20,537 nucleotides of DNA from a virus, in IMG/VR virus record IMGVR_UViG_3300033053_000056, positions 1 to 20,537 of that record, one strand, 5' to 3'. The position numbers and the translations under genes were made by a program. This document shows positions 4,619 through 12,185 of this stretch, in pieces. Below the pieces are notes generated by a model. It was not told the origin of the DNA. It did no database searches and was given only the letters and a program-made list of their open reading frames with translations. Every line of letters starts with the position of its first letter. Within the stretch, counting starts at the first letter, position 1.

Positions 4619-7330
4619 TTAGTCCCGTTGTGAATTTGGTTTTTCAAAAATCCAGCAGCGTTTGGTGGTACTGGTAATTTTGCTTTGAATGGCTTTATTG
4701 GCTTCGACAAAGCGGTAATGCAGGCTGTGGCGCAATGCGTTTTGCAGCTCATTTACTTCTGGCAATGAATAGCGATAATCCGCTGCGACCTTGTATAAAT
4801 GGGCAAAATTGATGGCAAATAGGTCTGATTTGGCCGAGTGATTGACCACGCTGTCATGGTGTTCCGGATTGCGAATTGAATCCTCCATTTCTTCCACCGT
4901 GTTCCAGAAATTCTGAACAATGACTGAATCTGATTTCAGGATCTTGTCTCGGGTTTGAGCCATGGCCAGCAATTCTGCATGAACCTGTTTTTGCACCTGT
5001 ACCGGTACGGCAACAATGTGCTGACACATGGCATCAAACAAGGCCATAAGCTGTGCATGGTTATGCACCACACGTGAACTCTGGATGTTGAATTGTTCCT
5101 GGTGTAAAAATGCATCATGTTTTTGCAGATTGAGGTTATAGCTCTCCAGTACAGCTTTTTCTTTGTTTAAACACTGCAAAATAAACTGGCTGACATTCTC
5201 ATGTTCATACTTTGAAAGTCTGCGCGATGCATACAGGCTGTCTTTCGTGAGCTGATCCTTTACAAATCCAACATGAACAATACGTCCCATGATGGCTTCT
5301 GATGCCAGAACCGGTGCATTCTGGCTGATGATCAATGTCCCCATAAAAGGCGGTTCATACGTTTCATTACCGCCATTTTTTACCCCTTGCGCCCCCAGTG
5401 AACCACCGTCATACAAGGTTTTGCACATATCCCAGTTGAACTGTTTTGATGCGCTTTCTCCCTGGCGATCTGACTCAATTAAAATCACCGGCAAGTTGGA
5501 AACCTGTCTGAAGGTACGAGTCAAACCCGCTTTTGAAGTTTTGGTTGGATCCACACCTTCATAATTGATACGGCCAAACAATTTCCATAAAAATTGCAGC
5601 AAGGTTGATTTACCGGTACCCGGTTCACCGACAATTTCAATAAAGGGAAATGACTTATGTACCTGGCGGATCTGTTGGGCATACAGGCTGCCGAAAAATG
5701 CGGTGAGCGCGATAAGTCCCTTTACACCGTAGGCATCAATTAAATCTGTGCTCCATGCATTCTGGTATTCGGCCTGATTTGCATTGATATCCAGCGTGAA
5801 TGGTGCACGGCTTTTCAGGTTGATGTTTTTAGGCAGTTCAAAATAGTCTTCATTGTTAATTTTGAACTGTTTCCCGGTTTGATAGGCCAATTCACCCAGC
5901 ACATAAGTTTTCAGTTCACTGTGATAGCCCACATAGTTGATGAGCTGAACCCGTTTAATGTCCTCGATCCAGCGTTCAAGTAAACGGTCGAGCTGGGTGC
6001 CATTTCCGGTATAAACCACACCTGGTGCAACGGCCAGCAAGCGTTTTTTGAACTCTGATGCTGCAGCAAGCTGTGAGCCGGTAAAGGTGTTTTTGACTGA
6101 CTTTTGATTACGTGGGAAGTCAATATTGAAGTAATACCAGGCTTCGTCAGTTTCGTCGCTGTACTGGTAATACAATGCAGTCGGTTTGCAGTTAATGATT
6201 TTGGTGACATTGGCTGCAGCATGTAGAGCTTTATCACGACGATCTGCCTGTGCTTTTTCCTTTTCTTCTTCTAACCAGTCTTCATTGTCATCTTCAAAGT
6301 CGATATCTTTCATGTACTCGTCGTACTTGTCGTTATCTAGCTTGAACCAGAACACCTGATTATTAAAATCGAAAGGAAACGTTTTGGTACCGTGACGCTT
6401 GTAGATAAGTAACGCTTTATCCACAGGTTTTTCTGCTATAAGCAAGGCACCATAGTATTTATAGGTTTCAAGGTCACTGAACTTGAGACGATCTTGTTTA
6501 TACAGATCATTCCAGTCCTGCTTTTTACGACCAGCTGGCGGTAAAGCTGCTTCACACTCAAAACCATCGGCAATGGCCTTTTCGATATTATGAAAAATAC
6601 CGTCATGCCCTGCCTTGTCATTGTCAAATGCCCAGACCAGCTTGGGTAAAGGCAAATTACCTTCTGCACATTTCTGTTTGATGTGGTTTAAAAATATGAA
6701 AGGGTAATAACCATGCCCTGCAGATAAGCAGCTGAAACTGGTAATACCGGATAGCCATAAAGCGATGGTGTCAAAAATACCTTCAGTGATCCAGATTTCT
6801 TTGGATTCAATATAGTTGGTATTGGGTGTTAGCCAGGAATGCCCTTGTGACTTCCAGCCTTTCTTGAACATGGTCTTAGGCAATACACCCTGTTCATCCA
6901 GAATGCGTTGCCACCAGCCATGGTTGCCTTCTTCATCGGTAATAGGAAAACGTAAAGTCGTTGAGCCGACCTGAAGTTCAAAGTCTTTATAATATTCCTG
7001 AGAATAAAGACCTTTTAGCTGGTCGATGGGTAAACCACGACCTTCTACCAGGTAGGCATCGACTGTTTTGGTTGGGTTTTCTGGAGTTGGAGTGAATCTT
7101 TTTTCCCATTTTTCAAACAGATCCGGATACAGGTCACGTATATAGGTTGTTTCGCCACATTTGTTGTTGCGTGGGCAATGAATCACCCAAGGTGATTCAA
7201 GGCTGGTCCATGCTTCTTTTTGTGAACAGCTTGGGCATTTGCCTAGACGTAGTTTGTCACCACGTTCTTTAAATTCAAACTCTTGTTTTAAGCGTTCGAC
7301 CACTAAAGTCTGAGTTTCTGGGAACATCAT
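4619..7330 (-). CDS. Primase-helicase: zinc finger, Toprim and P-loop ATPase domains
   Basis: A 903-residue replication protein, the largest early gene. Domains in order: a CHC2-like zinc finger with Cys32, Cys35 (CPSC), Cys52 and Cys58; a Toprim primase domain with Glu183 (ITEGIFD) and the DND motif at 236-238 (WAFDNDKAGHDG); a long middle region with an acidic linker (about 342-366); and a helicase-type ATPase with Walker A GEPGTGKS at about 568-575 and a Walker B-like strand VILIES at 615-620. It should prime and unwind phage DNA at the fork, as in P4-alpha/D5-like or DUF927-type phage primases. P2 itself uses the rolling-circle nickase gpA, so this replication module is not P2-type. ATG codons at 7330 and 7327 are both possible; AGGAAG lies upstream. 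Confidence 0.88.
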   Translation of the reverse strand: MMFPETQTLVVERLKQEFEFKERGDKLRLGKCPSCSQKEAWTSLESPWVIHCPRNNKCGETTYIRDLYPDLFEKWEKRFTPTPENPTKTVDAYLVEGRGLPIDQLKGLYSQEYYKDFELQVGSTTLRFPITDEEGNHGWWQRILDEQGVLPKTMFKKGWKSQGHSWLTPNTNYIESKEIWITEGIFDTIALWLSGITSFSCLSAGHGYYPFIFLNHIKQKCAEGNLPLPKLVWAFDNDKAGHDGIFHNIEKAIADGFECEAALPPAGRKKQDWNDLYKQDRLKFSDLETYKYYGALLIAEKPVDKALLIYKRHGTKTFPFDFNNQVFWFKLDNDKYDEYMKDIDFEDDNEDWLEEEKEKAQADRRDKALHAAANVTKIINCKPTALYYQYSDETDEAWYYFNIDFPRNQKSVKNTFTGSQLAAASEFKKRLLAVAPGVVYTGNGTQLDRLLERWIEDIKRVQLINYVGYHSELKTYVLGELAYQTGKQFKINNEDYFELPKNINLKSRAPFTLDINANQAEYQNAWSTDLIDAYGVKGLIALTAFFGSLYAQQIRQVHKSFPFIEIVGEPGTGKSTLLQFLWKLFGRINYEGVDPTKTSKAGLTRTFRQVSNLPVILIESDRQGESASKQFNWDMCKTLYDGGSLGAQGVKNGGNETYEPPFMGTLIISQNAPVLASEAIMGRIVHVGFVKDQLTKDSLYASRRLSKYEHENVSQFILQCLNKEKAVLESYNLNLQKHDAFLHQEQFNIQSSRVVHNHAQLMALFDAMCQHIVAVPVQVQKQVHAELLAMAQTRDKILKSDSVIVQNFWNTVEEMEDSIRNPEHHDSVVNHSAKSDLFAINFAHLYKVAADYRYSLPEVNELQNALRHSLHYRFVEANKAIQSKITSTTKRCWIFEKPNSQRD

Positions 7331-7986: not shown

Positions 7987-8013
7987 TATAGTGATGTGCT
8001 ACAAATCACTATA
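7987..8013. promoter_or_regulatory. Repressor operator overlapping the early promoter -10
   Basis: TATAGTGAT (7987-7995) and ATCACTATA (8005-8013) are perfect 9-bp inverted repeats with a 9-base spacer. The 14-base sequence ATAGTGATGTGCTA at 7988-8001 recurs exactly twice more, at 9523-9536 and, inverted, at 9503-9516. The dyad covers the -10 of the leftward early promoter and lies 41 bases before the repressor ATG, so binding could repress early genes and adjust repressor synthesis. A second perfect palindrome, CATAAATTTATG, lies at 8015-8026. Confidence 0.72.
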
Positions 8014-8035
8014 GCATAAATTTATGTTCTTTCAA
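8008..8035 (-). promoter_or_regulatory. Leftward early sigma-70 promoter
   Basis: On the minus strand TTGAAA (8035-8030) is followed after 16 bases by TATAGT (8013-8008), which is preceded by TG at the extended -10 position (TGCTATAGT). It faces the early operon, whose first ATG is at 7970. The operator dyad overlaps the -10, as expected for a repressed lytic promoter. Confidence 0.68.
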
Positions 8036-8053
8036 TGCCTAAAGGTTAAATAT

Positions 8054-8404
8054 ATGTCCGAAAATACAGAAAAATTAGCTATCGAAATATCGGGAAGATT
8101 CAAGGAAGAACTGGAACGGAATGGTTTAAAGGCAAAGTCGTTAAGCCGGGAAATAGATGCCCATGAAAATACCTTAGGAAACTACGTCAGGAACAAGGTG
8201 CCGGATCAGTGGGTATATCTGTCCAAACTGCACCAGGAAGGTATTGATATTCGCTATGTGCTATTGGGAATTGATCCAGACTTTAGCGGACTGACCAGTG
8301 AAGAAAGCCTGTTATTAAAGGCATATAGACAGTTAAAACCGGAAGCGCAGGAAGCTTTGTTAAATTTAAGCCGTGTGATGGCGATAGATACAGAGAATAA
8401 GTAA
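8054..8404 (+). CDS. CI-like HTH prophage repressor
   Basis: A 116-residue regulator with an N-terminal helix-turn-helix region at about residues 22-48 (RNGLKAKSLSREIDAHENTLGNYV), followed by GIDIRYVLLGI, a signature of many phage HTH repressors, and a short helical C-terminus (KAYRQLKPEAQEALLNL). There is no LexA-type peptidase domain, so RecA-stimulated self-cleavage is unlikely and induction may need an antirepressor. I choose the ATG at 8054 over the upstream ATG at 8024: AAAGG lies about 9 bases before 8054, while the longer form adds ten residues outside the fold. It is divergent from the early operon, with operator dyads between, and ends at a bidirectional terminator. Confidence 0.82.
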   Translation: MSENTEKLAIEISGRFKEELERNGLKAKSLSREIDAHENTLGNYVRNKVPDQWVYLSKLHQEGIDIRYVLLGIDPDFSGLTSEESLLLKAYRQLKPEAQEALLNLSRVMAIDTENK

Positions 8405-8448: not shown

Positions 8449-9027
8449 TTATTTCTCTAACCTTGACTGCACCTGCTGCAGCTTATGTTCCAAGTCCATC
8501 AATTTATAGATGAGATCTGTAGTTTGATACGTGACATCTCTATTATTGGGTGCTGCCTCTAAAGACTGTCTCCAGATACGAAGTGTGCTAAGTGAACAAT
8601 CAAGTGACAATTCAGCTTCGTTTTGTGAAATTTCCATTATTTCCCCCTGGGCAATTTGATTTAATTGAAATTGCCAAACCGTTACTTCGGTATTGTTCCA
8701 GATGGGGCTGGTAATAATATGTTCTCCATTGAATTTAGGATAGATGAGGTCCGATAGCGACTGTTTTAACATTTTTATATCGATAGCTTGATCTGATTGA
8801 TCATTTTTTGCCAGCTCATTGAGCAGGTCATTAATCTGGTCCGGACTGATGGACAGATGGCCCCTGGCTGTGTCGTGATTAAATGAAAACTGCGCCTGGA
8901 CACAACGGTCAACAATTTCAAATAACTGTTTGCACAGCATCAGACTTTTTTCAGTTTTGGCTTTTACCCGGTCAGCAATAGGGACATAGGGAATAATGTT
9001 CTGGTTGATTTGTTCTGAATTCTGCAT
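8449..9027 (-). CDS. Unrecognised 192-residue protein in the antirepressor position
   Basis: A 192-residue hydrophilic protein with no family I recognise. It is largely helical and ends in a coiled-coil-like segment (MDLEHKLQQVQSRLEK). A central segment (QNEAELSLDCSLSTLRIWRQSLEA, about residues 134-157) has the look of a short helix-turn-helix. GGAGG lies 8-9 bases before the ATG at 9027 and overlaps the last codons of the upstream 67-residue gene, implying translational coupling. By position (second gene behind a C4-like antisense RNA, with an operator-controlled promoter) it matches the ant antirepressor gene of P1. That function is inferred from context only. Confidence 0.68.
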   Translation of the reverse strand: MQNSEQINQNIIPYVPIADRVKAKTEKSLMLCKQLFEIVDRCVQAQFSFNHDTARGHLSISPDQINDLLNELAKNDQSDQAIDIKMLKQSLSDLIYPKFNGEHIITSPIWNNTEVTVWQFQLNQIAQGEIMEISQNEAELSLDCSLSTLRIWRQSLEAAPNNRDVTYQTTDLIYKLMDLEHKLQQVQSRLEK

Positions 9028-9030
9028 CGC

Positions 9031-9234
9031 TTAGCCTCCCATAAACAGCATTGGGGAAACAAATAACACAGCACAGCAAAAAGTCAGCGTTTGAATGAGA
9101 TTTTTACGGAATCTGGCAAATTTATTTTGTTTTTGGCGTTCTAAATAAGCACCCATGTCATAGATTGGGGTGTGCTCCGGAGCCGGAGTGATTGGTGCAG
9201 GTGTGCGGGTACGGACTTGAATCTGTCTTTTCAT
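9031..9234 (-). CDS. Small membrane protein behind the C4-like leader
   Basis: A 67-residue protein: a basic, Pro-rich N-terminus (KRQIQVRTRTPAPITPAPEH), a charged helix (YLERQKQNKFARFRKNL) and one hydrophobic C-terminal segment (TLTFCCAVLFVSPMLFMGG, residues 49-67), suggesting a tail-anchored membrane protein. Its ribosome-binding site AAAGAGAG (9250-9243) is part of the repeated element complementary to the C4-like RNA, so its translation should be blocked by that RNA. It is the first gene of the operon, like icd in P1, and the next gene appears coupled to it. A toxic or division-blocking role would fit that position but is not shown. Confidence 0.65.
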   Translation of the reverse strand: MKRQIQVRTRTPAPITPAPEHTPIYDMGAYLERQKQNKFARFRKNLIQTLTFCCAVLFVSPMLFMGG

Positions 9235-9293
9235 GACGGAAACTCTCTTTTGAAGGTTTTAAACCCACCGCCATTACTTCCTACGGTAATGGT

Positions 9294-9360
9294 GGCAGAC
9301 CGAACAGGGGTAGGAATACCGTCCAAAAGAGTAAACGGCCAGTCAAAGACTGCCCTGCCC
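9294..9360 (-). ncRNA. C4-like antisense RNA
   Basis: On the minus strand this folds by inspection as a junction. CAGGG (9357-9353) pairs with CCCTG (9309-9305). Inside are the hairpin CAGTC-TTT-GACTG (9352-9340) and a hairpin CCGT/ACGG (9338-9319) whose loop carries CTCTTTTGG. TTCCTAC (9316-9310) is left unpaired. CTCTTTTGGA is complementary (one G-U) to TTCAAAAGAG, and TTCCTAC to GTAGGAA. Both target elements occur twice, in matching order, once upstream (9462-9433) and once over the 67-residue gene's ribosome-binding site (9285-9243). This is the a'/b' versus a/b logic of the P1/P7 C4 RNA, which blocks icd-ant translation. RNA ends are approximate. Confidence 0.72.
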
Positions 9361-9400
9361 GATCTACCATAACGAGTATAGCCGATCAGACATTTTAGGC

Positions 9401-9422
9401 AAAAAAAAGCCGCATTGAGCGG
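9401..9422 (-). terminator. Leader terminator inside the C4-like operon
   Basis: On the minus strand CCGC-TCAAT-GCGG (9422-9410) is followed by C and eight T (9408-9401). The stem is short, but outer A/T pairs (AAATAAA with the T-run) could extend it. It would end some transcripts about 85 bases after the promoter, before the C4-like segment and coding genes. Confidence 0.5.
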
Positions 9423-9432
9423 TGTTTATTTG

Positions 9433-9485
9433 CTCTCTTTTGAATTTAAACAGGTTCCTACGCCTGTACGCAGATTTTGCTGCGT
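9433..9485 (-). ncRNA. Leader RNA with upstream copy of the C4 target elements
   Basis: The predicted 5' end of the transcript forms two hairpins: ACGCAG/CTGCGT (9485-9468) and ACAGG/CCTGT (9467-9450). The second hairpin's 8-base loop is CGTAGGAA, the same element found in the loop of a hairpin (9294-9269) just before the 67-residue gene. TTCAAAAGAGAG (9444-9433) also recurs at 9254-9243. In P1 a matching upstream pair exists beside c4. Here the leader could be a decoy, a processing signal or a small RNA; the sequence does not decide. Confidence 0.5.
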
Positions 9486-9491
9486 TTTTAC

Positions 9492-9521
9492 ATATTGCTC
9501 GATAGCACATCACTATGTCAA
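9492..9521 (-). promoter_or_regulatory. Leftward promoter of the C4-like operon
   Basis: On the minus strand a perfect -35, TTGACA (9521-9516), is followed after 18 bases by CAATAT (9497-9492), a weak -10. The expected start is near 9485. The -35 sits at the centre of the paired operator, so repressor binding on both arms should block polymerase. Confidence 0.55.
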
Positions 9522-9537
9522 TATAGTGATGTGCTAT
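9502..9537. promoter_or_regulatory. Paired operator: 15-bp inverted repeat
   Basis: ATAGCACATCACTAT (9502-9516) and ATAGTGATGTGCTAT (9523-9537) are perfect inverted repeats with a 6-base spacer. Each arm contains the 14-base sequence found in the operator beside the CI-like repressor gene (7988-8001). It lies between the leftward C4-like operon and the rightward cargo genes starting at 9559, so it could control both. Confidence 0.75.
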
Positions 9538-9558: not shown

Positions 9559-10305
9559 ATGAATAATTTAGAAGATAAAAAAGTATCAATCCCATTAGCT
9601 ATAGGGATTTTTTTAATTCCTTTAATTTTTGCTTGGTTTACTTTAAAAAAAGGATATTCAACCAAAGCACGTGTACTTAGTTTTGGATGGTTAATCCTTG
9701 GATTTATTGCATTTGCATTAATGCCTACACCTCCAGGTCAAACGAATAGCACCCCAAAAGCTGAAGTTGTAGAAAAAACCGAAGCTGAAAAAACGGCTCT
9801 TGCAGATGCTGAAGCCGCAGAAATTCGACAAAAATCTGAAGCTAGAAAAGCTGAATTAGCAGAAGAAGACAAACCACATTTTGAATGGCCACGAGTTGAC
9901 TATACCAAAGCTGTGGCAAAGATTGCTTCAATGGATGATCAATCAATCCTAAAGGCTGTAGCTAAACCGATTATCGAAAAAGAAGATATCACAAATGAAA
10001 ATGGTGAACCCGCAACAATTTATTATTTCAGTAAAAATTTAGTCAATGGTTTAGATATAGCTCTAAGCCGCGAATTCATTGATGTAACTTGGAGATTTGA
10101 TGAAAAAGATCCAGTTAAAGCTACCGATGCATTTAATGATGGACAGCAAATTACGCGGGCATTATTGGGTGGAAAAGAAGGTTCAAATCTTTATGAAGCA
10201 ATCGCTAAAGGGCAAAAATTCGATACTTTGCATTTAGAAGATGGTACTGAAATTAAGAATGCGCGTTGTGGGTCAAGTGTATGCAGATATCAAATTGTGA
10301 GATAA
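9559..10305 (+). CDS. Two-TM membrane protein, unrecognised (cargo gene)
   Basis: A 248-residue protein with two transmembrane segments near the N-terminus (about residues 10-28 and 38-56), a charged helical linker rich in E, A and K (about 65-110), and a soluble C-terminal domain (115-248) ending CGSSVCRYQIVR, where the two cysteines could form a disulfide. I do not recognise the family. The ATG at 9559 lacks an obvious ribosome-binding site. It starts 21 bases past the paired operator and runs opposite to the phage early and late genes, as phage cargo genes often do. The next gene follows after two bases, so the two are probably coupled. Confidence 0.72.
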   Translation: MNNLEDKKVSIPLAIGIFLIPLIFAWFTLKKGYSTKARVLSFGWLILGFIAFALMPTPPGQTNSTPKAEVVEKTEAEKTALADAEAAEIRQKSEARKAELAEEDKPHFEWPRVDYTKAVAKIASMDDQSILKAVAKPIIEKEDITNENGEPATIYYFSKNLVNGLDIALSREFIDVTWRFDEKDPVKATDAFNDGQQITRALLGGKEGSNLYEAIAKGQKFDTLHLEDGTEIKNARCGSSVCRYQIVR

Positions 10306-10307
10306 AA

Positions 10308-10523
10308 ATGAAAAATTTAGTTTTATGTATATCTCTCGCCTTTTGTTTCCCATCTATGGCCTTCGCAAAATATTGCAAAGACTTTAAAACCCATCAAGAA
10401 GCGCAAGCCTATTTCAATGCCAAAAAGCCGGGATATAAGCGTCTAGATCGAGATAAGGATGGCAGTGCCTGCGACTGTTTACCGGGTGGAAACGGTAAAA
10501 AATGCCCTAAGAGTAAAAAATAA
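10308..10523 (+). CDS. Secreted Excalibur calcium-binding domain protein
   Basis: A 71-residue precursor. Residues 1-20 are a signal peptide (MKNLVLCISLAFCFPSMAFA, probable cleavage after AFA). The mature part is one Excalibur domain: YCKDFKTHQEAQAYF, then a DRDKDGSACD calcium-loop-like motif with Cys residues, and a Lys-rich tail. Excalibur domains are extracellular and bind calcium through the DxDxDG loop. I choose the ATG at 10308, not the upstream in-frame codon, because it gives a clean signal peptide and follows the preceding stop by two bases. Its role in the prophage is unknown; an envelope change after lysogeny is one possibility. Confidence 0.82.
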   Translation: MKNLVLCISLAFCFPSMAFAKYCKDFKTHQEAQAYFNAKKPGYKRLDRDKDGSACDCLPGGNGKKCPKSKK

Positions 10524-10545
10524 GTAATATTAAGGAACCAGATAT

Positions 10546-11565
10546 ATGTCAATTTGTGCCACCTATCATCAACTCACTGCATCAGTAGAATCACTCATTC
10601 AAGGTAAACCTAAAGCTATTGCTACCATAAATTTATATGAGTATTTTCAAAAATTAGTTGAGTGGGGTTATGTCGATTTTAAACGTAATTTTTTGAATGA
10701 TAGATTTTGCGGATTAATTTCGGATGTGCATTTTGATGATGCTCTGAATGCAGTCAAATTTGTATTTATCATTGCTGATGCAGAAGCTGAAAATCAGGTT
10801 GCACGTAACTTAGAAACCAATAAAACACGACCTTTAAAGAGAAATAAAAATGAGGGAGCAGATAAAAGAGTAAATGTCGCGATACAAGTTGATTCATCCA
10901 ATCCTGCCATAGCTAAGGTTGCCCTAGAATATGAACGAGGCATCACGATAAAAAAACTTATTGATACTTTAAATTATTTCTTTAGCCATGCAAGAAAACA
11001 TGGTGGTTTTGAAAGTTACTTTATTGGTGATGATCCAGTGGAACGCTATCAAAAAGCACCTAGAACTGGGCAACCAAAACCTTTAGCTTATAAGCCAAAA
11101 TTAGAAATTAAGGCAGAAGTTGACCCAAGTATTATTAAGGCTTTCGAAGATGGAAAAATTCAGCACGTAGATTTTTATAAACAAGCCCAAAATAGTACAA
11201 ACTTTGATGCTACTGGACATTTTAGCCAGGATAAAATTAAAGTTTCAATGAGAGTAGATACTCAAATCATCAGTGATACTTCCACATCATTTTTGGATAA
11301 AGCCGCTGATGTTATTGGTACTTTTGCCCTGTTTAGAAAAGGCCAGCCAGATATGCAAGGCTCAGTTTTTACAATTAATTTTAAAGATGAAAATGGAAGC
11401 CCTCGTACTGCGGAATATGATGCTGATGATGAAGTTTTCCGTTTAGTCAAGAAAGAATATTTCCCAGAAGAACTACGACAACCTATGTCGGAAGAGGATG
11501 AAAATGGTGAGAGTCCTGCTCGTACCAATATTAACCTATGTGATAGAATGTTAGCTAAAATATAG
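10546..11565 (+). CDS. Unrecognised 339-residue soluble protein (candidate defence gene)
   Basis: A 339-residue protein of a family I do not recognise. The N-terminal half (about 1-170) is mixed alpha/beta with an aromatic-rich segment (YEYFQKLVEWGYVDFKRNFL) and a helical stretch before FFSHARKHGGFESYFIGDD. The C-terminal half (about 190-325) is beta-rich and acidic, ending EEDENGESPART. No membrane segments or nuclease or ATPase motifs are visible. AAGGA lies about 10 bases before the ATG at 10546. It is followed 29 bases later by a four-TM protein gene with a near-perfect ribosome-binding site, forming a two-gene cassette in the cargo block. A sensor/membrane-effector defence or exclusion pair is a hypothesis from layout alone. 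Confidence 0.72.
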   Translation: MSICATYHQLTASVESLIQGKPKAIATINLYEYFQKLVEWGYVDFKRNFLNDRFCGLISDVHFDDALNAVKFVFIIADAEAENQVARNLETNKTRPLKRNKNEGADKRVNVAIQVDSSNPAIAKVALEYERGITIKKLIDTLNYFFSHARKHGGFESYFIGDDPVERYQKAPRTGQPKPLAYKPKLEIKAEVDPSIIKAFEDGKIQHVDFYKQAQNSTNFDATGHFSQDKIKVSMRVDTQIISDTSTSFLDKAADVIGTFALFRKGQPDMQGSVFTINFKDENGSPRTAEYDADDEVFRLVKKEYFPEELRQPMSEEDENGESPARTNINLCDRMLAKI

Positions 11566-11594
11566 TCGTCCTACCTATAATTAAGGAGGTAGTT

Positions 11595-12185
11595 ATGCTT
11601 GAATTAATATTTAAGCCATTAAACTATCTTAGTATAAGATGGGATAATGGAATAATTAATAAAACTCGTTTTGATTTTATTATTCCTTTATTAATTGCAT
11701 TTATAATAAGTGCCATTATGACCTTTTTATGGTTTAAAATTGGCACTGATAAATCTAATATTTTTACCAATGATCTGACATATTATTTAATTTGTTTTTT
11801 ACAGACAATGCCAGGGTTTTATATCGCTGCTTTAGCTGCGATATCGACTATCAATAGTACGACTATGGATCAACCAATGGCTGGTGATCCTCCTAAAGAA
11901 AAATATGTTGAATATAATCCATATAAAGTTTTTTGGATTGAAATGAATAGAAGAAGATTCTTAGCACGATTATTTTCTTATCTAACATTCATCAGCATCG
12001 TATTATTTTGTTTTTTATTAATTATCCGATTTTCATATAGTTTAGAGATTAAAGTTTCTTCATTATATGCAGTTTATATAACTTACTTTTTTTCTTGTTT
12101 AGTTGTTATTTTTTCACTTGTACAGTTAATAATGATGACTTTTTTAAGTCTTTATTACTTAGGTGAAAGAGTACATAAAAATTAA
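11595..12185 (+). CDS. Four-TM membrane protein (candidate effector)
   Basis: A 196-residue membrane protein with four predicted hydrophobic segments at about residues 26-47, 62-85, 125-146 and 157-188. A cytoplasm-type basic loop (KVFWIEMNRRRFLARL, about 111-126) precedes the third. The sequence MDQPMAGDPPKEKYVEYNPYKVFW lies in the loop between segments two and three. I do not recognise a family. The Shine-Dalgarno AAGGAGG, 6 bases before the ATG at 11595, is the strongest in the cargo block, suggesting high expression relative to the upstream gene. A terminator directly follows. Membrane effectors in this arrangement occur in phage exclusion systems, but nothing here proves that. Confidence 0.75.
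   Translation: MLELIFKPLNYLSIRWDNGIINKTRFDFIIPLLIAFIISAIMTFLWFKIGTDKSNIFTNDLTYYLICFLQTMPGFYIAALAAISTINSTTMDQPMAGDPPKEKYVEYNPYKVFWIEMNRRRFLARLFSYLTFISIVLFCFLLIIRFSYSLEIKVSSLYAVYITYFFSCLVVIFSLVQLIMMTFLSLYYLGERVHKN

Follow-up and report, generated by a model that had tools for sequence, protein, structure and literature searches.

The closest described systems to the locus analysed here are the c4-icd-ant (immI) immunity systems of phages P1 and P7, in which the parts run in the order operator/promoter, a1, b1, C4 (carrying b' and a'), a2, b2, small ORF and larger ORF, with the C1 operator Oc4 lying over the c4 promoter; in operons of the P1 type the antirepressor gene carries a KilAC domain and its product inactivates the phage repressor. 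A second comparison is offered by the isrK-orf45-anrP locus of the Salmonella prophage Gifsy-1, where, as reported in PMC4825925, supplying a short IsrK RNA in trans increased translation from the operon behind it approximately 139-fold and a stable RNA of ~80 nt, STnc1160, is cut from isrK read-through RNA. The C4 fold with variable recognition loops is also found in the 'Group 1' small RNAs of Acinetobacter baumannii AB5075 (Weiss et al. 2016, PMC5320573), a study that assigned no targets to them; more recent A. baumannii interactome papers likewise yielded no mention of C4 targets under the terms used. A further C4 occurs in N15, an unrelated telomere phage, again with an isrK match directly upstream.

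We analysed a 20,537 nt stretch of viral DNA (IMG/VR record IMGVR_UViG_3300033053_000056, positions 1 to 20,537), hereafter the window. Its minus strand carries a locus resembling the P1/P7 systems in C4 fold and score, the a1/b1 and a2/b2 pairs, the placement of b2 at a ribosome-binding site, a small ORF followed by a larger one (here of 192 aa), a candidate repressor operator on the leader promoter and the order of all these parts. Unlike P1 and P7, it encodes no Icd or KilAC homologue, uses other a and b sequences, has a -10-like element directly before C4 and is carried by a P2-like phage. With Gifsy-1 it shares an isrK-like, apparently terminated leader directly before C4, a small ORF and a downstream gene, but the leader falls under the isrK threshold and the second ORF is no known antirepressor. 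In our judgement the locus is best, and probably, explained as a C4 antisense-RNA immunity module carried by a P2-like Acinetobacter prophage.

The C4 module of the window

The module is bounded by a divergent plus-strand gene (9559-10305) and the 67-aa ORF (9234-9031) (Table 1). The virus is a P2-like (Peduoviridae) Acinetobacter prophage: GpU, tail tube FII and tail sheath genes lie within the window in P2 order, together with an E-type chaperone match just below threshold, and the capsid genes fall outside the window fragment. P2 itself gave no C4 match, in keeping with the preliminary description of this DNA, which had placed the module in a P2-like phage and noted that P2 has none. Between the module and the tail genes, divergent plus-strand genes (9559-12185) matched phrog_37565, phrog_35178 and phrog_8257, with an Excalibur domain in 10266-10523; these are likely variable cargo, and the first of them begins next to the C4 leader's operator region.

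The preliminary description, made from the letters alone, had proposed that two ordered elements each occur twice, with their complements between them in a segment folding as a three-way junction. Direct reading of the minus strand confirmed the 10-pair (one G-U) and 7-pair complementarities exactly, with the coordinates of the ordered repeats and their complements correct to within 1-2 bases, and the junction holding b' in a hairpin loop proved to be the minimum free energy fold. The Rfam C4 covariance model (RF01695), which that description had put forward as a check, matched at full length (9374-9288, minus strand, model positions 1-87/87), scoring 68 bits against a gathering score of 45 (E 1.4e-11); the corresponding scores were 68.8 bits in P1, 69.6 in P7, 78.8 in N15 and 69 in Gifsy-1. 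Folded as a piece separate from the leader, C4 reached -41.6 kcal/mol, a value equalled by none of 200 shuffled sequences (z -5.9). At a relaxed threshold, the other Rfam matches, all in the leader region, were isrK, c4-a1b1 (RF03163, at 19.6 bits below its gathering score of 46.7) and two families at chance level. By model match and fold the module is a genuine member of the C4 RNA family, and comparison with the P1 boundaries leads us to expect a mature C4 of about 9368-9291. RNAs of the family are short, of about 77 nt, and are cut by RNase P.

Table 1. Features of the C4 module and the adjacent switch region in the window
Feature	Position	Strand	Remarks
Candidate operator, perfect 15-nt inverted repeat ATAGCACATCACTAT-n6-ATAGTGATGTGCTAT	9502..9537		Arms 100% complementary; overlaps leader -35
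Candidate leader promoter	9492..9521	-	TTGACA 9521-9516, weak -10 CAATAT 9497-9492, 18-nt spacer
isrK-like leader RNA	9403..9486	-	H1, then H2 (a1 in loop), b1, terminator-like hairpin
a1 GTAGGAA	9461-9455	-	Upstream target for a'
b1 TTCAAAAGAG	9444-9435	-	Upstream target for b'
Terminator-like hairpin CCGC-TCAAT-GCGG-C-T8	9401..9422	-	Read from sequence; between b1 and C4
Candidate C4 promoter TTGCCT - 16 nt - TATACT	9375..9402	-	TATACT 9380-9375; 9/12 consensus match
C4 antisense RNA	9288..9374	-	RF01695, 68 bits, plus fold
b' CTCTTTTGGA	9331-9322	-	Loop of P3 hairpin
a' TTCCTAC	9316-9310	-	Strand joining P3 to P1
a2 GTAGGAA	9284-9278	-	Downstream target for a'
b2 TTCAAAAGAG	9254-9245	-	Downstream target for b'; overlaps Shine-Dalgarno of 67-aa ORF
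67-aa ORF, ATG at 9234	9031..9234	-	phrog_24540; occupies icd position
192-aa ORF	8449..9027	-	phrog_25537; last operon gene
Putative immunity repressor (phage transcriptional regulator)	8024..8404	+	phrog_8, E 5.6e-6
Candidate operator, between repressor gene and divergent RHH gene	7987..8013		Shares TATAGTGATGTG with C4 module

Relatives were collected through the 192-aa protein, giving 56 loci, 46 of them viral and 10 from Acinetobacter genomes, and nearly all carried C4 upstream on the same strand. Among GenBank phages, only two gave DNA matches, both weak: a Bracchivirus contig from skin and a Vibrio phage, each of which has a C4; no plasmid match was found.

Leader RNA, promoters and operon products

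The isrK model (RF01394) matched the leader over 9486-9403 along its full length (41.7 bits, E 7.6e-8); since this falls below the gathering score of 50, we call the leader isrK-like only. Its hairpins H1 and H2 covary, and the hairpin and T run that follow b1 are kept in relatives. A consensus scan did not list this minus-strand hairpin, whose stem is 4 bp, and we therefore describe it as terminator-like from its sequence. The leader TTGACA is likewise kept in relatives; its promoter was absent from the calls of the same scan, for which reason the -10 assignment is tentative. Matches to isrK also lay directly upstream of C4 in P1 (35.1 bits), P7 (43.7 bits) and N15 (62.4 bits), with only N15 passing the threshold. 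In Gifsy-1 (NC_010392), isrK at 34316-34240 is followed after 25 nt by C4 at 34214-34131, and visual inspection of the reverse complement picks out a1/a'/a2 and b1/b'/b2. The Gifsy-1 IsrK paper (PMC4825925) contained no mention of C4 RNA or phage P1 under the terms used; STnc1160 is probably the Gifsy-1 C4. The recurrence of the isrK-C4 pair in P1, P7, N15 and Gifsy-1, taken together with the published IsrK data, suggests that the leader RNA here would act as a C4 antagonist. The same succession was observed in Vibrio phage PE002 (L003, 3852-4082), where an isrK match above threshold (59.3 bits) is followed by C4 (67.2 bits) and then a Rha-family gene; neither RNA is annotated in that record.

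The preliminary description had derived C4 from the same transcript as its targets, a route to which a promoter of its own may be added. A -10-like hexamer ended 5-8 nt before the C4 GG in 41 of 43 phage-type loci versus 1 of 62 chromosomal loci, a conservation that is not independent evidence because the phage loci share descent; positions neighbouring the hexamer were likewise highly conserved. The start predicted from TATACT falls on the GG at 9368 and fits the 5' end in P1, which has no -10-like element there. Given the hexamer's position in these phage loci, C4 may be transcribed from its own promoter, for which the sequence offers a good candidate. Small-RNA evidence, which covers other A. 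baumannii C4-like RNAs rather than the window phage, shows abundant RNAs beginning at GGW, with the rise in coverage at that point read as RNase P cutting (Weiss et al., PMC5320573). Both routes to the 5' end may exist, since the copies in that study resemble the chromosomal type without the hexamer.

The leader promoter and the adjacent switch share a candidate operator sequence. The TATAGTGATGTG of the leader-promoter repeat recurs at 7987-7998, inside the inverted repeat 7987-8013, and TCACTAT/ATAGTGA-type repeats were present at both places in most relatives, some variants occurring at both (e.g. L030 and L044). A putative repressor gene stood beside the operon in most relatives as well, and the product of 8024-8404 is probably the immunity repressor; its candidate operator would overlap the leader promoter much as Oc4 overlaps the c4 promoter in P1.

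The operon products departed from the P1 pattern. The 67-aa ORF, one of a conserved family marked by the motif EHTPIYDL and by a hydrophobic C-terminus, was considered as a candidate Icd; it gave no BLASTP alignment to P1 Icd, and NF033153 matched P1 Icd only. The 192-aa protein was similarly rejected as an Ant1 counterpart, as there was no meaningful alignment, and P1 Ant1 carries KilAC (PF03374) whereas the 192-aa protein has no Pfam match. An AlphaFold2 model of the latter (mean pLDDT 69, pTM 0.51) matched nothing in the PDB or among viral folds at E <= 0.001, and searches found no PDB sequence match and no relative of assigned function. It is the constant last operon gene in relatives, a constancy that holds by construction because the relatives were found through it. 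Approximately 20 relatives have a further gene between the 67-aa and 192-aa ORFs, of 268 aa and of the Rha family (PF09669, TIGR02681), and a Rha gene also follows the Vibrio phage C4. The C-terminal part of one Rha-family product (L013:2183-2989) resembles a stretch of the phage primase (window 4619-7330), with ~37% identity over 68 residues. The proteins of the window operon match none of the Icd, KilAC and Rha families; position and the sister loci with a Rha gene suggest that the operon may act in an antirepressor-like manner. The likeness to c4-icd-ant that the preliminary description had drawn thus stands for C4 and the order of parts and fails for the antirepressor, none being recognisable here, and by gene homology the module is not a P1-type icd-ant operon.

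In the mechanism that we propose, the three-way junction presents b' in its hairpin loop and a' in the joining strand, and C4 would pair in trans with both a2 and b2, the latter overlapping the ribosome-binding site of the 67-aa membrane-type ORF. Such pairing would keep that ORF from being translated and, because translation of the two would be coupled, the 192-aa ORF as well. In the lysogen, a repressor (probably the 8024-8404 product) would bind an operator common to its own switch and the leader promoter, whilst C4 would come from its own small promoter and/or be cut from read-through RNA. Were the repressor absent or inactivated, the leader promoter would make a short isrK-like a1-b1 RNA sequestering C4; read-through mRNA would also be made and would then be translatable, and its product would favour lytic growth.

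An alternative that we regard as unlikely is action in cis, whereby the long transcript would switch between folds pairing either a1/b1 or a2/b2 with a'/b' and no free C4 would be needed. Two alternative long-mRNA structures are described in PMC4825925 for Gifsy-1 isrK-orf45-anrP, a locus with the same isrK-C4 arrangement, and here a single transcript could span leader and C4. Against this, C4 alone is very stable (z -5.9) and has a -10-like element at its 5' end, and the abundance of A. baumannii C4-like RNAs favours a separate RNA; cis switching would in any case be compatible with action in trans.

Recognition sequences across related modules

Pairing was assessed in 47 distinct modules, comprising 45 of the window type and two distant ones (L002 and L003). 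Both a' and b' matched their own downstream targets in 46 of the 47, over approximately 7 bases for a'-a2 and 9 for b'-b2, and likewise for a1 and b1; none of 5000 partner permutations reached the observed means of cognate pairing to both sites. The exception, L046:2359, has a1/b1 and lacks a2/b2. In L003, a1 fell outside the 110-base search window, and CGTAGGAA could be read by eye further upstream. In an alignment of 42 modules that included a'-a2, 49 pairs were 96.4% paired and 20 changed on both sides, as against 8.6 two-sided changes in shuffles (0 of 500 as high) and at most 4 with slid partners; the modules share kinship, and these counts are not independent events. Substituting a'-a1 gave 96.2% paired and again 20 two-sided changes. 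The P1, P2 and P3 stems were 99.6, 92.8 and 99.5% paired, with 8 two-sided pair changes within them. The stems covary, and changes in the loops are compensated at both target sites; the preliminary description had pointed to both as tests among homologues.

From variation in the loops, Weiss et al. (PMC5320573) suggested a role on host mRNAs. That the prophage C4 chiefly regulates host mRNAs is nevertheless very improbable, as loop variation is mirrored at the cis targets in those same 46 modules. Least probable of all is that the module is a decayed remnant without function, as orphan or truncated copies in some relatives (the first copies of L013, L016, L019 and L021; L046:2359) might suggest, since the window retains every part intact and compensatory changes continue to be seen from one relative to another.

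Across modules there were eight a strings and 26 loop strings; strict triple matches gave approximately eight a types and roughly at least 17 b types, with length variants merged by hand, and 37 a/b combinations before such merging. The window's own b type, CAAAAGAG, was combined with four a types, indicating that a and b are exchanged independently. Modules with nearly identical flanks can differ in specificity: L024 and L044 share 99.0% identity over 699 nt downstream and differ in b, whilst L029 and L033, which are 97.1% identical, differ in both a and b. That loops and targets switch together between phages otherwise almost identical suggests selection for new immunity types. A full module matched a mean of 1.7 of 76 other targets.

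Tandem arrangements were also observed. The first copies in four pairs (L013:888, L016:891, L019:891 and L021:70) have C4 and target intact and the small ORF truncated; they differ in specificity from the full module behind them and share that of L017/L038. At L046:2359-2441, a C4 with a1/b1 only stands immediately before a full module that has another specificity. The idea that orphan C4 copies form a repertoire of RNA immunity directed at other phages found no support in this sample: among 33 copies without a full cis target, compared with the small target sample of 77 other modules, only 5 matched any target.

C4 RNAs on Acinetobacter chromosomes

C4 was detected in 50 of 59 Acinetobacter genomes, six of which had 20-24 copies, and in none of 14 control genomes. 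Six genomes with 69 copies (L090-L156, e.g. L134, L135 and L140) made up the detailed chromosomal set. Many of these copies, scattered over the genome, represent a second C4 type with a GCTGGCC-(TA)CATT-GCCAG hairpin. This hairpin matches Region 1 of Weiss et al., whose loop (CACAUU or CUACAUU) in AB5075 is of the chromosomal second type, unlike the phage type of the window. In 33 loci C4 is followed, 182-322 nt further along its strand, by the start of a TetR-family-like ORF, and in 14 a small lipoprotein-like ORF comes after it, these labels being a reading of the sequences rather than the product of a domain search. By a simple score, a full a2/b2 is missing from almost half of the 69 copies, with a few class labels borderline or wrong through chance matches; most keep an a1/b1 match.

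C4 is a known family, which the present finding extends rather than founds; the interest of the module lies in its population-level diversity, its link to IsrK and the chromosomal branch. The comparison joins the P1/P7 C4 and Salmonella IsrK literatures as one module type. The same switch recurs in dozens of related viruses, with recognition sequences that differ between modules yet match within each. What the abundant Acinetobacter C4-like RNAs act on was left open in 2016; for the phage type the question is testable because exact, co-varying targets adjoin C4. We tentatively advance, with somewhat less than even confidence, a broader view in which C4 would be a diversified RNA recognition system across Acinetobacter. 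In prophages it would set many immunity types through approximately eight a and some 17 or more b sequences, mixed and switching together at three sites, with the leader as the built-in antagonist of each module, whilst a second branch may have been taken over by the chromosomes, where up to ~20 copies per genome would control TetR-family and lipoprotein genes.
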